Below are positions 9,166-28,615 of a stretch of DNA of 64,000 bases, one piece after another. This stretch comes from Paenibacillus sp. FSL W8-0186 (GTDB taxonomy: Bacteria > Bacillota > Bacilli > Paenibacillales > Paenibacillaceae), in the NCBI RefSeq assembly GCF_037969765.1, contig NZ_CP150207.1, positions 930,001-994,000 of the forward strand, written 5' to 3'. The position numbers were made by a program, and so were the translations under genes. The stretch's first letter is position 1. Every line of letters starts with the position of its first letter. The notes under the pieces are model-generated. The model was not told the origin of the DNA. It ran no database searches and saw nothing but the letters and a program-made list of their open reading frames with translations.

Positions 9166-9179
9166 GAAAGTAACTGAAT

Positions 9180-9270
9180 ATGGAGTGCGGGTGCTGGATA
9201 AAGTCCGGCTGAGATTGGAACCTGATGTTCCGGACCGTTAATCTGATCCAGGTAATGCTGGCGTAGAGAA
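9180..9270 (+). ncRNA. TPP riboswitch (THI element)
   Basis: Conserved THI-element blocks are present in order: GGGTGCTGG, the CTGAGA core (9209-9214), GAACCTGAT, CTGATCCAGGTAATGCTGG and CGTAGAGAA. A transcription terminator follows directly and then thiE, so thiamine pyrophosphate binding should cause premature termination of the thiE-S-G-O operon. Confidence 0.95.
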
Positions 9271-9283
9271 CATATCGAATTTA

Positions 9284-9316
9284 AAGCCATTCGTGTATTC
9301 TCGAATGGCTTTTTTG
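9284..9316 (+). terminator. Riboswitch-controlled intrinsic terminator
   Basis: AAGCCATTCG and CGAATGGCTT form a perfect 10-bp stem followed by a T run, 14 bases after the aptamer. Confidence 0.9.
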
Positions 9317-24165: not shown

Positions 24166-26040
24166 TTATTCTGCAGGAACGTCTGGTAGCTGACGCACGT
24201 AGCTGTCGGACAGATGCAGCAGCTGCAGCGCGCGGTCATACTCTTTTTGCGTAGATAAATTTTGCGCAGCCTGAGATCCGTTACCGTCATAAGGGAAATG
24301 GATTCCGTCCTGATACTCGATGCCTGGCACGAACAAAGCTTTATCATTCAGGAATGACCCGGAAGGCAAATAGTAGCGCTGCGGCAAAAGGTTATAGGTC
24401 TGGTTAAACAGATCCTGGCCAAAATGGATATGCTGGTTCAGTGATAGGCCGAGCAGATTCGCCAAGGTTGGCAATACGTCGACCTGACCGCCGATCGTAT
24501 TGACGACTGCCGGCTCGGAAACGTTAGGCGCCGAAATGATCAGCGGAATGTTAATCATGTCGATATAGCTGTATTCTTTGCCGTAGATTTCCTTCATCAG
24601 TTCCAGGCCTTGTTTGTCCAGGGAGTACATCGGCAGCCCGAGATGGTCGCCATAAATGATAACGATGCTGTCGTCCCAGATGCCCCGCTGCTTCAGATCG
24701 TCGATAAATTCGCCCAACGCTCGATCTGCGTAATTTTGCGCCTGAATATAGTCGCCGACCATGTTGTCCTGATACCGTTCAGGGAGCGGGAATAAGCGCT
24801 TCTCCTCCGGCAGGGTGAACGGATGGTGTGCGGTCATGGAGATCACCTGAGCGTAAAACGGACGATCTGCATCATGCATTTTTTGAATTTCATCGGCTGT
24901 TTTCTTGTACAGCACATCATCGGATGGGCCGAAGAAGACCGTATCCTCGCTTCCGAAGAACGTTTTATCATAGAAGCGGTCAAATCCGAGCGCTTCGTAC
25001 AACGCACGGCGGTTCCAGAAGTCAACTACATTCGTATGGAAGGTGGCCGTATCGTAGCCCTGGTCTTTCAGCAGCTTCGGCAGACTTGGGAGCTGTTTGT
25101 AGGCGTAATTCTGCGTAGCCGCTTCGTTGTAAGGAATATAGAAGGACGTGTTCACCACGAATTCGGCATCAGAAGTGTTGCCTTGCCCGACCATTTGATA
25201 GAAATGCTTGAAATAAGTATTTTCCTTGGCGAGCTTGTTCATCGTTGGAGTCACTTCCCGGCCGCCCAGCTTGAAATCGATCAGGAAATTCTGGAACGAT
25301 TCCATTTGAATGATGATCACATTCTTGCCCTGGGCTGCCCCAAAATGAGCAGGCTCCGCAACCGGAGCGGTAACGCCCTTAATCTGATCGATTTTGGCTT
25401 GCGTAATTTCTTTCTTATCGGTGAGCTCGGAATCCTTGCTTTTGAAAATCACGTAGGTTTCGTAATTAAGAATTCCCATTTGCTCGGCCTGCTTGATTTC
25501 GTTCATGCTGGCTCGATTCGGCCAAATATTAAAGATGCAAAGCGCAAAGGAGACGGCAAAAATAACGGCTGCCACACTTCCCCGGACCCGGCCCAGGTTG
25601 AAGAAGCTTTTGAGCTTGTGGGCGCGTTTTTTGCGCATCAGCCAGAAACCAAGCAGTACGATGTCAAGGAAAATAAACAGATAATAAGGGTCAAGCAAGG
25701 AGAATACGCTGTTCTTGACCGCGGTGACCTGATTGACCTGCTGCAGCGCGTGATAAGTAACCAATACGCCGTAATATTTGTAGTACATAATCGCCGCGAA
25801 CAGAACGGCCGTAATCACGAAATTAACGGCGAGATAAATCCCGATTTTGCGCTTGGACGAGAACCATTCGATCAGCATGAACGCAACCCAAATAAACGGG
25901 ATTTCCTTCAGCAGCGGCCCCCAGGGCTGTACCCCGTCGAAGATGGCGAGCCAAGCAATATAGATTTTCAAAATCATGATAACGGAGAAAAAAACAAACG
26001 GCTTCGTATGGATTCGACGAATGCGATGTACTAAGGACAC
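24166..26040 (-). CDS. LtaS-type lipoteichoic acid synthase / sulfatase-fold membrane enzyme
   Basis: 624 aa: five N-terminal membrane helices and a large extracellular sulfatase-fold domain (about residues 215-600). The catalytic threonine lies in GNTSDAEFVV, metal ligands in VIIIQMESFQNF, YGDHLGLP and MTAHHPF. LtaS transfers glycerol phosphate from phosphatidylglycerol to growing lipoteichoic acid. Bacillus has several paralogues (LtaS, YqgS, YfnI, YvgJ), and which one this corresponds to cannot be decided here. GGAAGG precedes the start on the minus strand. Confidence 0.92.
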   Translation of the reverse strand: MSLVHRIRRIHTKPFVFFSVIMILKIYIAWLAIFDGVQPWGPLLKEIPFIWVAFMLIEWFSSKRKIGIYLAVNFVITAVLFAAIMYYKYYGVLVTYHALQQVNQVTAVKNSVFSLLDPYYLFIFLDIVLLGFWLMRKKRAHKLKSFFNLGRVRGSVAAVIFAVSFALCIFNIWPNRASMNEIKQAEQMGILNYETYVIFKSKDSELTDKKEITQAKIDQIKGVTAPVAEPAHFGAAQGKNVIIIQMESFQNFLIDFKLGGREVTPTMNKLAKENTYFKHFYQMVGQGNTSDAEFVVNTSFYIPYNEAATQNYAYKQLPSLPKLLKDQGYDTATFHTNVVDFWNRRALYEALGFDRFYDKTFFGSEDTVFFGPSDDVLYKKTADEIQKMHDADRPFYAQVISMTAHHPFTLPEEKRLFPLPERYQDNMVGDYIQAQNYADRALGEFIDDLKQRGIWDDSIVIIYGDHLGLPMYSLDKQGLELMKEIYGKEYSYIDMINIPLIISAPNVSEPAVVNTIGGQVDVLPTLANLLGLSLNQHIHFGQDLFNQTYNLLPQRYYLPSGSFLNDKALFVPGIEYQDGIHFPYDGNGSQAAQNLSTQKEYDRALQLLHLSDSYVRQLPDVPAE

Positions 26041-26104
26041 CTTGTTCCCTTCCTTTCAAAATATAGACGGAAGTGCAAGTCGGCTGCATGCCGATTACAA
26101 TCCG

Positions 26105-26135
26105 TTAACATAGTGTATAAATACTTTAATATAAT
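26105..26135 (+). promoter_or_regulatory. Candidate promoter of the MutS2-like leader
   Basis: A perfect TATAAT (26130-26135) with TTAACA at 26105-26110; the 19-base spacing is long. It would start transcription about 18 bases before the first upstream ORF. Confidence 0.4.
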
Positions 26136-26159
26136 ACCTCATATTACAGGGAGATGAAA

Positions 26160-26186
26160 ATGTCGCTGAAAGCGGCTGGTCATTGA
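26160..26186 (+). CDS. Upstream ORF 1 in the MutS2-like leader (8 aa)
   Basis: ATG-to-TGA frame encoding MSLKAAGH, with CAGGGAG a few bases upstream. It may be a leader peptide; its length alone gives no coding evidence. Confidence 0.35.
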   Translation: MSLKAAGH

Positions 26187-26242
26187 CTACGGGCCGTAAT
26201 AGCTGGTAAATTAGAATTAACCTCGCAAAAGGAGAGATTTTG

Positions 26243-26266
26243 ATGTTGGTGGCCGTTCTTAACTAA
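26243..26266 (+). CDS. Upstream ORF 2 in the MutS2-like leader (7 aa, MLVAVLN)
   Basis: ATG 26243 lies six bases after AAAAGGAGAG, an excellent ribosome site. The frame encodes MLVAVLN and stops at 26266. Its last four codons, including the stop, are exactly the 5' arm of the 12-bp stem GTTCTTAACTAA/TTAGTTAAGAAC. A ribosome stalled here would melt that stem, as in leader-peptide attenuators of antibiotic-resistance genes. Inferred regulatory leader peptide. Confidence 0.6.
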   Translation: MLVAVLN

Positions 26267-26370
26267 TAAATTCCATATGGACTGTAATCGAACGGAAGAA
26301 GTGCCGTTGCTGTCGCAGCGTGCGCCAGGTTTCGTGCACCCAAATTGCAGTCTGGTATTTAGTTAAGAAC
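26255..26370 (+). ncRNA. Structured leader RNA with long-range stem
   Basis: Perfect 12-bp arms (26255-26266 and 26359-26370) enclose a 92-base loop that can form three small hairpins: AACGG/CCGTT, GCTG/CAGC and GTGC/GCAC. No known riboswitch core was recognised. Two intrinsic terminators follow before the MutS2-like gene. Confidence 0.55.
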
Positions 26371-26423
26371 ACGCAGGACATCATACAGCGCCTTTTTGCT
26401 GTTTGTATCTATCGAGGATGAAT

Positions 26424-26452
26424 CCCGTGCTGTAGTTCAGCGCGGTTTTTTT
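26424..26452 (+). terminator. First leader terminator before the MutS2-like gene
   Basis: CCGTGCTG pairs with CAGCGCGG around a short loop and is followed by TTTTTTTG. It sits upstream of the coding sequence, as an attenuator. Confidence 0.7.
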
Positions 26453-26482
26453 GTTTTCGGAAGGTATAGCAGCGAGGAATCA

Positions 26483-26528
26483 AGGGCTAAGGATGCGCTA
26501 TGTGCATTCTTACGCCCTTTTTTTGTTG
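26483..26528 (+). terminator. Second leader terminator before the MutS2-like gene
   Basis: AGGGCTAAGGATGC pairs with GCATTCTTACGCCCT, followed by a run of seven T, only 39 bases before the start codon. Confidence 0.75.
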
Positions 26529-26566
26529 TGCAAATCATGAACGGGAAAGAAACGGAGGTTGACACA

Positions 26567-28615
26567 ATGGTGGAACAATTTACACTCGGCATGCTGGAAT
26601 ACGAGAGCATTAAGGAGGAAATGGCCAGCTACGCGGTCTCCTATGAAGGGCGGCTGCGCATTCAAAAGCTGGTTCCGATGGAACGGAGAGCGCAAATCGA
26701 GCAGGCGATCGAGGAGACGGCGGAAGCCAAGGAGCTGCTCTTGACGGGGGCAAGCGTTCCGCTGCCTTCGCTGGAGGGCATTGATACGGTCATGTCCTTG
26801 CTCGGTACAGGTTATCTGTTCACGGAGAAGGATTTTACCGCGATTCAGACGTTTCTGCACAGTTGCGGCCAGCTCAAGAAGTACATGGCCTCCAAAGGAG
26901 CGCTCGCGCCGCGGATTGGCTTATATGCCGCTTCACTGTATGAGATGGCCCAGCTTCAGCAGGAAATACTGCGCTGCATCCGCCATGGCGCCATTCTCGA
27001 TGGGGCGAGCCGCGACCTGGATCGAATTCGCCGGAGGATGGGAATGCTGAAAGAGAAAATCCAGAAGAAGCTGCAGGCGGTCATGTCCAGGCATGCTTCC
27101 ATTTTGCAAGAAAATCTGGTCAGCATGCGGGGCGGACGGTATGTGATCCCTGTAAAGAAGGATTACTACAAGCAGGTCAAGGGAAGGACGCTGGATCAAT
27201 CTACGAGCGGGCAGACAGTGTTCGTGGAGCCGGATGAAGTCGCATCGCTGCAGGCCGAGCTGGAGGTGCTGGCAGGAGACGAGGCGCGTGAGGAAGCGAA
27301 AATACTGGGATATTTGACAGAGCTTGTAGAGAGAGGGGCCCACGAACTGTCGCAAAATATTGAGATCACGGGGACGTATGACTTCATTTTCGCCAAAGCG
27401 AAATATGCCGTTGCCATCGGGGGGACGGCGGTTCGGATCAGTGAAAATGGAGCCAGCAGAATTACCGGAGCCCGGCATCCGCATCTGCTCAAAACGATGG
27501 TTCCCCTGGATCTGGAAATCGGCTCTGCCTACAGGACGCTTATTATTACCGGTCCGAACACGGGCGGCAAAACCGTGGTGCTGAAAACCTTCGGTCTGCT
27601 CGCATTAATGGTGCAATCGGGCCTGCTTGTCCCTGTGAATGCCAATAGCAGCTTTGCCATTTACAACCGCATTATGGCTGTGATCGGCGATGGCCAAAAT
27701 TTAGAGCAGTCCTTAAGCACCTTCTCCGCGCAAATCCGCAGTCTCGTCCATATGATACAAGAAGCGGGTCCGGATGCGCTGCTGCTGATCGATGAGCTGG
27801 CCGCGGGAACCGACCCTGGAGAGGGCATCGCTTTATCGGTGGCGATTCTTGAGGAGCTTAGCCGCAGGGGGGCGACTGTCCTGGTTACGACGCATTTTAA
27901 CGAGCTGAAGACGTTCGCTTCGCATACAGAAGGCTTCCAGAATGCGCGAATGGAATTTGACCCGGAGACACTGATGCCGCTGTATCGCCTGACGATTGGC
28001 CAGGCGGGACAGAGCTATGCGATCGAAATCGCCAGCAACCTCGGAATCTATTCCGGCATTATTGAGCGTGCAAGGGAAATGGCGGCTCGGCAGGGTGGCG
28101 CTGCATCAGCTGGGGAATTGCTAGATGGACAGGAATACCGGCCGTGTAACAAAAATATAAAGAGAGAATCCGAAGCAGAGATAGAGCACCTTGAGGACGG
28201 GTATACGAATTTTGAAGCAGCAGAAGAGGAAGACCGGCGCGAGACAAATGACGGATATGCGGAAAAAAGTCGTAGCGCAATTGGCAAATTCTCCTCAGAT
28301 GAAACCGCTGCTGAAGAACCGCAACGCCCCGTGTTTGAAGTTGGGGACGCTGTGTGGGTTACCGCATACGGTAAAATTGGCATCGTCTTCGCAGCAGAGG
28401 ATAGCCGGGGACAGGTCGGCGTCATGATTCAAAAGCAGAAGTGCAAAGTGAACAGGAAGCGCCTGAAGCCGTATATCAAGAAGGAGGAGCTGTATCCGGA
28501 AGACTATGATATGGATATTGTCTTTGAGACGAAGGAGAACAGGAAGAAAAGCAAACTGATGCGGAAGAGGCATGTGGAGGGACTGGAGATTGTCCGCCGG
28601 CCGGAGGATGATTAA
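26567..28615 (+). CDS. MutS2-like ATPase lacking the Smr domain
   Basis: About 682 aa. After an N-terminal helical core come the MutS-family ATPase motifs: Walker A GPNTGGKT, LEQSLSTFSAQIRSL, Walker B LLLIDELAAGTDPGEG and TTHFNELKTFA. After about residue 520 there is a charged linker, then a KOW-like strand-rich segment (VGDAVWVTAYGKIGIVF), but no C-terminal Smr endonuclease domain; full-length B. subtilis MutS2 is about 785 aa. MutS2 in Bacillus acts on collided and stalled ribosomes. ATG 26567 follows AACGGAGGTTGACACA; an open frame extends upstream to 26396 but crosses a terminator. Confidence 0.9.
   Translation: MVEQFTLGMLEYESIKEEMASYAVSYEGRLRIQKLVPMERRAQIEQAIEETAEAKELLLTGASVPLPSLEGIDTVMSLLGTGYLFTEKDFTAIQTFLHSCGQLKKYMASKGALAPRIGLYAASLYEMAQLQQEILRCIRHGAILDGASRDLDRIRRRMGMLKEKIQKKLQAVMSRHASILQENLVSMRGGRYVIPVKKDYYKQVKGRTLDQSTSGQTVFVEPDEVASLQAELEVLAGDEAREEAKILGYLTELVERGAHELSQNIEITGTYDFIFAKAKYAVAIGGTAVRISENGASRITGARHPHLLKTMVPLDLEIGSAYRTLIITGPNTGGKTVVLKTFGLLALMVQSGLLVPVNANSSFAIYNRIMAVIGDGQNLEQSLSTFSAQIRSLVHMIQEAGPDALLLIDELAAGTDPGEGIALSVAILEELSRRGATVLVTTHFNELKTFASHTEGFQNARMEFDPETLMPLYRLTIGQAGQSYAIEIASNLGIYSGIIERAREMAARQGGAASAGELLDGQEYRPCNKNIKRESEAEIEHLEDGYTNFEAAEEEDRRETNDGYAEKSRSAIGKFSSDETAAEEPQRPVFEVGDAVWVTAYGKIGIVFAAEDSRGQVGVMIQKQKCKVNRKRLKPYIKKEELYPEDYDMDIVFETKENRKKSKLMRKRHVEGLEIVRRPEDD

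Follow-up and report, generated by a model that had tools for sequence, protein, structure and literature searches.

A conserved seven-codon leader ORF, predicted to act as a ribosome-mediated transcription attenuator, before a Smr-less MutS2 paralog and other genes in Bacillota

Introduction

The locus described here has several described relatives in kind. In the vmlR leader of Bacillus subtilis, a short upstream ORF (uORF) lies in an anti-antiterminator stem, and a TTATTT pause hairpin, an antiterminator and an intrinsic terminator follow, as set out in the available part of that report (PMC9226507). Available extracts of a study of Listeria report that hflXr is induced by lincomycin and erythromycin (PMC6310831), whereas a response of the leader considered here to such drugs is a prediction. 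With regard to the protein, B. subtilis MutS2 binds collided or stalled ribosomes and splits them through its ATPase; it is Smr that brings MutS2 to collisions, a domain missing from the paralog described below, and MutS2 Smr mutants show very modest erythromycin sensitivity only (PMC10897456, in the excerpts available).

The locus lies in a 64,000-nucleotide stretch of Paenibacillus sp. FSL W8-0186, the whole of which we call the window. An earlier note had read it as a circuit in which a ribosome-stall sensor, comprising a TATAAT, two short ORFs (uORF1 and uORF2), a long-range stem and two terminators, switches on a MutS2-like ATPase gene. An attenuator is still the best reading, uORF2, the stem and the terminators all being conserved, but uORF1 and the TATAAT do not belong to the leader. 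We put the probability at roughly 0.72 that the leader is a ribosome-mediated transcription attenuator, in which a stall on the uORF would give readthrough into the gene of a likely ribosome-splitting ATPase.

Results

Layout of the leader

The window sequence confirms uORF2, its ribosome site, the 12-bp stem (P1) and both intrinsic terminators (T1 and T2) as the note had described them. The features, all on the plus strand, are these:

26183-26212, plus strand: predicted leader promoter, with -35 box TTGACT (26183-26188), -10 box TAAATT (26207-26212) and a start at about 26219-26221
26230-26234, plus strand: Shine-Dalgarno (SD) sequence AGGAG of uORF2, 8 nt 5' of it, its GG core nearly invariant in the 30-leader alignment
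26241-26247, plus strand: predicted P0 5' strand, TGATGTT, which covers the uORF2 start codon (from folding only)
26243-26266, plus strand: uORF2, ATG TTG GTG GCC GTT CTT AAC TAA, encoding MLVAVLN-stop
26255-26266, plus strand: P1 5' arm, GTTCTTAACTAA, the last three codons of uORF2 plus its stop; predicted anti-antiterminator
26279-26288, plus strand: P1 outer extension, 5' strand, GGACTGTAAT, co-evolving with ATTGCAGTCT
26344-26353, plus strand: P1 outer extension, 3' strand, ATTGCAGTCT, co-evolving with GGACTGTAAT
26359-26370, plus strand: P1 3' arm, TTAGTTAAGAAC, a perfect 12-bp complement of GTTCTTAACTAA
26377-26383, plus strand: predicted P0 3' strand, GACATCA, partner of TGATGTT (from folding only)
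26384-26391, plus strand: best predicted antiterminator strand of the window copy, TACAGCGC, which pairs with the T1 rising arm
26425-26452, plus strand: intrinsic terminator T1 (stem 26425-26445), CCGTGCT...AGCGCGG followed by T7
26482-26524, plus strand: intrinsic terminator T2 (stem 26488-26512), present in most relatives scanned
26493-26540, plus strand: optional third uORF, MRYVHSYALFLLCKS, which begins in the T2 rising arm in some clades only
26567-28615, plus strand: Smr-less MutS2 paralog of 682 aa, Walker A and B intact, KOW-like domain retained

P1 encloses further hairpins and the leader fold is very stable: positions 26136-26566 fold at -157.8 kcal/mol, against -121.9 kcal/mol for shuffled sequence (z -6.4; 0/100 shuffles as good). 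Three terminator-like sites occur in 25900-26700, where shuffles predict 0.8. Comparison of the leader with Rfam gave a lone sub-threshold match, Leu_leader (E 1.4; 15.6 bits, where the cut-off is 50), which we judged to be chance. The crcB motif found before mutS in an older survey, so far as the accessible text describes it, was set aside as a different element, since it has its own Rfam family and yet Rfam found no match here. Elsewhere in the window, at 9177-9286, there is a TPP riboswitch (Rfam RF00059).

Promoter placement was examined in 30 non-redundant leaders (less than 80% alike, with arms no more than 125 nt apart). A promoter-like site has its -10 box ending 30-33 nt 5' of the uORF start in 24 of these and 29-39 nt before it in 27, being absent from L010, L019 and L026; TTGAC serves as the -35 box in 22, and the mean best promoter score is 9.27 compared with 6.72 for shuffled sequence. 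This conserved promoter overlaps uORF1 (26160-26186), the end of which runs into the -35 box TTGACT at 26183-26188, and transcription is therefore predicted to start just 5' of uORF2. The uORF1 ATG is also missing from L006 and L007. We consequently reject uORF1 as a component of the leader; it is probably not transcribed. The TATAAT (26130-26135) must be given up as well, because it sits upstream of the conserved leader promoter. Several relatives keep it, and it is perhaps a promoter element of the LtaS-like gene that runs in the opposite direction at 24166-26040 on the minus strand.

Distribution and the uORF peptide

The note had named a lack of conservation of uORF2 or the stem as grounds for refuting its reading; both proved to be conserved between species. 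Of 80 MutS2-like loci found by protein only, one (L045) came without upstream DNA and 79 had at least 400 nt upstream; 77 of these 79 carry both the uORF and the 3' arm, neither of them with more than one mismatch. Ns lie over the uORF of L069, which retains the 3' arm and both terminators, and L094 has the variant uORF MSAVTLN. A DNA search matched 34 of 59 relatives; its uORF piece, taken by itself, also had matches in further families of the order and two matches in some genomes. Searching the class with a uORF pattern gave matches in 67/398 genomes and 16/145 genera, a few of which are plainly due to chance (for example L119-L121), against 8 matches in 6 genomes for a reversed control pattern. 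Two covariance models, built from leaders that lie partly within the genomes searched, matched at E 0.001 in 76/398 class genomes and 21/145 genera (R1) and in 17/398 phylum genomes and 306/392 order genomes (R2). There were nine phylum matches outside the class: L277 and L278 precede a MutS2-like gene, four are in genus g266, and others are L243 and L244; L281 (G893) was judged a chance match. Two of the four in g266 were read (L279 and L280), and both stand before ABC transporters. Judged by sequence conservation, then, the leader is a cassette conserved across many Bacillota.

In the non-Bacilli genus of L279 and L280, to which the R2 hits L240 and L241 also belong, the related leader peptide is MIKGVLK and an ABC half-transporter pair follows; at L279 the pair is of the MsbA/multidrug type. 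Another leader with its MutS2-like gene (L226) is carried on plasmid pHD01 of Paenibacillus sp. IHB B 3084, where the product is annotated as DNA mismatch repair protein MutS.

The family consensus of the uORF2 peptide is M-S/L/T-V/A/G-x-V-L-N-stop. A profile from alignment A3, which favours VLN-type leaders, was run over the loci collected and returned 192 distinct or 96 non-redundant leaders; among the latter the uORF has seven codons in 91 and ends in VLN-stop in 89. Its SD, start, length and frame are conserved, the 5' arm lies in frame behind the SD in most leaders, and the codon changes within VLN are partly synonymous (GTC, GTG, CTG, AAT). Other endings are VLS in L208 and L216, TLN in L094, VQI in L236 and VLY in L363 and L366. 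L092, L291 and L144 have a displaced stop. Four leaders before GNAT genes (L373, L377-L379) keep both arms and are without the ATGTCGGTGNNN stretch; in these the arm is read in another frame and VLN would not be encoded. These displaced stops and lost VLN frames weaken the idea of a peptide-specific arrest at the stop codon.

In many clades (for example L080, L115 and L127) the T2 rising arm contains an ATG behind an SD-like AGGGC, opening an ORF with the peptide M-x-(F/Y)-V-(H/L)-S-x-(P/A)-F-F (26493-26540 in the window). The palindrome may give rise to it as a by-product, or it may serve these clades as a second leader of their own; the idea that it is a general second sensor was dropped, several clades having no ATG there.

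Stems and the predicted switch

In the A3 alignment of 39 leaders, 94.4% of P1 core cells can pair, compared with 22-51% when the arms are slid. Changes on both sides of the core are few: three cells (matched by 7/500 shuffles) or two distinct pairs (matched by 40/500). In L219/L220, GTT CTG AAT is accompanied by a changed 3' arm, and additional compensated arms are those of L278 (GTTCTGAAC/GTTCAGAAC) and of L279/L280 (GTTCTTAAATAA/TTGTTTAAGAAC). RNAalifold applied to 30 leaders (A1) recovered the P1 core alone, invariant and without covariation. Such near-invariance makes it hard to tell a constraint on the stem from one on the peptide.

Co-evolution is clearer in the outer extension of P1, where each strand pairs with its own partner at -13.3 kcal/mol and with swapped partners at -8.3 kcal/mol (z -9.7, 0/2000 permutations, n=30), with the proviso that kinship among the sequences inflates this and every other swap test. 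P0 pairs no better with its own partner than with swapped ones, and was abandoned as a co-evolving helix. The distance between the arms ranges from 69 to 193 nt and the interior of P1 is poorly conserved.

The putative antiterminator joins the 3' arm and the bases after it to the rising arm and loop of T1. Its own pairing reaches -9.8 kcal/mol against -8.5 kcal/mol when swapped (z -4.4, 0/5000, n=39), in a set where another hairpin was taken as T1 in at least L100, L212 and L224. In the window copy the best strand (26384-26391) lies outside P1 and is not coupled to it. To model the switch, the RNA was cut before the falling strand of T1 and folded at equilibrium; of the 96 leaders, 87 had a recognised arm and T1 and were used. 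The mean probability of P1 is 0.90. Masking the end of the uORF raises the antiterminator probability from 0.08 to 0.27 (up in 49 leaders, down in 3), a rise that must be called modest since it comes to 0.21 in swapped and to 0.19 in shuffled controls. The window's own leader shows no switch at equilibrium, its antiterminator probability being 0.56 free and 0.53 masked. A TTNTTT motif between the uORF and the 3' arm occurs in 64 of 95 leaders, where single-base shuffles predict 27.9 and dinucleotide shuffles, against which the excess is smaller, 42.0; the window's copy does not contain it.

Genes behind the leader

The first recognised downstream gene family was recorded for 157 distinct leaders, obtained through leader searches and accepted by the profile, a non-random set in which top-scoring, second-copy or odd hits were picked and for which the target reference proteins were chosen after the loci had been seen: it is MutS2-like in 119, BpsA-like in 29, GNAT in 5 and APH-like in 3, with none in one. 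Excluding the 21 leaders that came solely from a DNA query holding 134 nt of the gene, these numbers become 98, 29, 5, 3 and 1 of 136; adding protein-chosen loci brings the total to 206 leaders, with 156 MutS2-like, 41 BpsA-like, 5 GNAT, 3 APH-like and one without. The target gene begins within 510 nt in 155 of the 157. Eight of the 206 leaders are followed by a MutS2-like and then a BpsA-like gene, and the source genome itself has two copies of the leader, the second of which precedes a BpsA-like gene.

PF01861, the domain of the BpsA-like proteins, exceeds its cut-off in 31 of 246 genomes of the order. At 30 such loci, the leader is directly 5' of the gene in 17 and, going by coordinates and by reading three of them, about 2.5 kb before the match in 8, while no leader was found near the match in five (L162, L171, L172, L174 and L175). 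All 39 sequences, which include a few duplicates where the same gene was fetched twice, contain GDDD and DPPY together with two or more CxxC pairs. Their last 25 residues hold 2-8 acidic residues, mostly 2-4, and so the acidic C-terminal cluster is absent; in true BpsA this cluster is the aminopropyl carrier, according to the accessible part of the source (PMC12979288). A solved relative has DPPE in place of DPPY, and the DPPY family is probably not a true branched-polyamine synthase. BpsA-like proteins with DPPY and two CxxC pairs are found, for instance, at L115 (G000:C1:2846805) and L274-L276, at times sharing an operon with the MutS2 paralog.

Further GNAT targets occur at L373 and L377-L379, and a further APH-like one at L368; no named resistance family exceeded its cut-off in either group. 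Together with the DPPY proteins, GNAT and APH-like proteins hint at drug defence. The APH-like kinase stands behind VLS-type leaders with GTG starts (L208, L364, L365 and L368). A second type of GNAT gene lies 3' of the MutS2-like gene in L283, L292 and L293 and, by eye, has a relative in the second gene of L224. At L358 the GNAT match is 1840 nt from the leader, at L376 a transposase lies downstream, and the leader of L371 has no recognised target, a Pfam scan of the first 75 residues of the product being empty.

A MutS2 paralog without Smr

What had been called a MutS2-like ATPase gene does encode a MutS-type ATPase, though it is a paralog without Smr and not canonical MutS2. Its product, of 682 residues, reaches 580 bits against the MutS2 model. 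The source genome also encodes a full-length MutS2 (L002), 37% identical to the paralog over 588 residues and without such a leader in the stretch searched, and has a third, weaker MutS-type match. Both canonical MutS2 and the paralog are present in 15 of 16 chosen genomes, G710 being without the paralog. On a tree, a branch with 100/100 support separates 27 paralogs from 17 canonical MutS2 proteins. An Smr domain was detected in one of 28 proteins, the canonical L002, and in none of the 27 paralogs, whose Walker A and B residues do not vary. In 26 paralogs the C-terminal region could be aligned with the canonical KOW region (hhalign 95.5%, E 1.6e-8; decoy region 0.1%), and the Pfam SH3 model MSSS at E 0.01 matches 4/28 members, including L002 and L044, leaving the window protein unmatched. 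Because MutS2 splits ribosomes with its ATPase, and Smr mutants are only mildly affected, a paralog without Smr could still split ribosomes. By analogy, it is likely to be a ribosome-splitting ATPase.

Discussion

In proposing how such a leader might work, we suppose that when translation of the uORF is unhindered, or absent, P1 would close and T1 would form, leaving the gene off. A ribosome held on the uORF would instead cover the P1 5' arm and keep P1 open, and the freed 3' arm could then pair with the T1 rising arm and loop, permitting readthrough. The TTNTTT inside P1, in about two thirds of leaders, may act as an RNA polymerase pause. The signal would be a translation-blocking compound, as the target genes suggest, and the Smr-less paralog, with its ATPase and KOW-like domain, would split the ribosomes that this compound had stalled. 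By analogy with known systems, the leader is likely to act as an alarm for translation-blocking drugs.

More tentatively, and at somewhat less than even odds, the VLN leader may be one cis-acting sensor of ribosome distress that has been copied before unrelated Bacillota genes, so creating a distributed regulon. Its members would be a dedicated Smr-less MutS2 acting to split ribosomes stalled by drugs, an enzyme with DPPY and the BpsA fold whose substrate is the drug or a component of translation, and GNAT or APH-like proteins that modify drugs. If this is true, most genomes of the order would possess, in the VLN regulon, an intrinsic defence against antibiotics. A correct reading would also give a name to a Bacillota-wide leader family, and would make the ribosome-rescue paralog and the odd BpsA-fold enzyme testable intrinsic resistance factors.

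In the source genome a BpsA-like gene has the same leader, and in some genomes such a gene sits behind the MutS2 paralog in a shared operon. This might instead suggest that the leader senses polyamine or another metabolite through ribosome behaviour on the uORF, with both proteins serving polyamine metabolism or stress. We consider this unlikely, since the BpsA-like proteins have DPPY rather than DPPE and no acidic C-terminal cluster, and GNAT and APH-like targets do not fit. An amino-acid attenuator responding to low charging of the tRNAs for Val, Leu or Asn would account for the V, L and N codons that close 89 of 96 uORFs, and yet most uORFs have one Leu and one Asn codon and lack an extended series of control codons, the last residue is S in L208 and L216 and Y in L363 and L366, and the four target families are not genes of amino-acid biosynthesis or uptake; this seems to us very improbable.

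Two other readings, which we rate a shade lower still and alike, would make the uORF incidental or take the arms out of RNA altogether. The hairpins inside P1 and the very stable fold would suit a metabolite-binding riboswitch closed by P1. However, no Rfam family matches the leader over its cut-off, the poorly conserved interior and an arm distance of 69 to 193 nt leave no conserved aptamer core, and an incidental uORF would not be expected to conserve its SD, start, length and frame. Alternatively, the two GTTCTTAAC arms, inverted and almost invariant, could be DNA operators for a repressor or a looped dimer. Outer P1 nevertheless co-evolves as expected of RNA, the arms change jointly in L219/L220, L278 and L279, the spacing varies freely, and most leaders keep the 5' arm in frame behind an SD. 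The attenuator responding to stalled ribosomes remains the reading that we prefer.

In the open-access literature searched, part of it available as extracts, we saw no uORF attenuator connected with MutS2 or with BpsA-like genes, and no occurrence of six leader peptide strings. The kind of mechanism is already known; what that literature, to the same extent, did not yield is the leader family, its use by unrelated genes and the link to a Smr-less MutS2.

The comparisons that follow draw on the available portions of the sources. Among described systems, vmlR has the order of uORF, anti-antiterminator, pause, antiterminator and terminator that is predicted for the leader here (PMC9226507), but its uORF is MIN, before an ABCF gene, where ours is a seven-codon VLN uORF with two tandem terminators; the leaders here precede MutS2-like, BpsA-like, GNAT or APH-like genes, which they are predicted to regulate. 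In Listeria hflXr/rli80 an attenuator likewise precedes the gene of a splitting-factor paralog, and a small ORF overlaps the anti-antiterminator, although that ORF has 14 codons and an RLR motif and the factor is the GTPase HflX (PMC6310831). B. subtilis bmrB-bmrCD shares ribosome-mediated transcription attenuation, in response to several ribosome-targeting drugs, but has a 53-residue leader that contains the terminator and controls an ABC transporter (PMC4191407); the VLK-type leader before an ABC pair in two genomes of one non-Bacilli genus may be compared with the bmrCD transporter. With regard to the products, the BpsA-like proteins share the PF01861 domain and GDDD motif of the branched-chain polyamine synthase BpsA and differ in DPPY, at least two CxxC pairs and the missing acidic C-terminal cluster (PMC12979288), while the MutS2 paralog shares core, ATPase and KOW-like domain with canonical MutS2 and differs in its lack of Smr and in forming a separate clade (PMC10897456).
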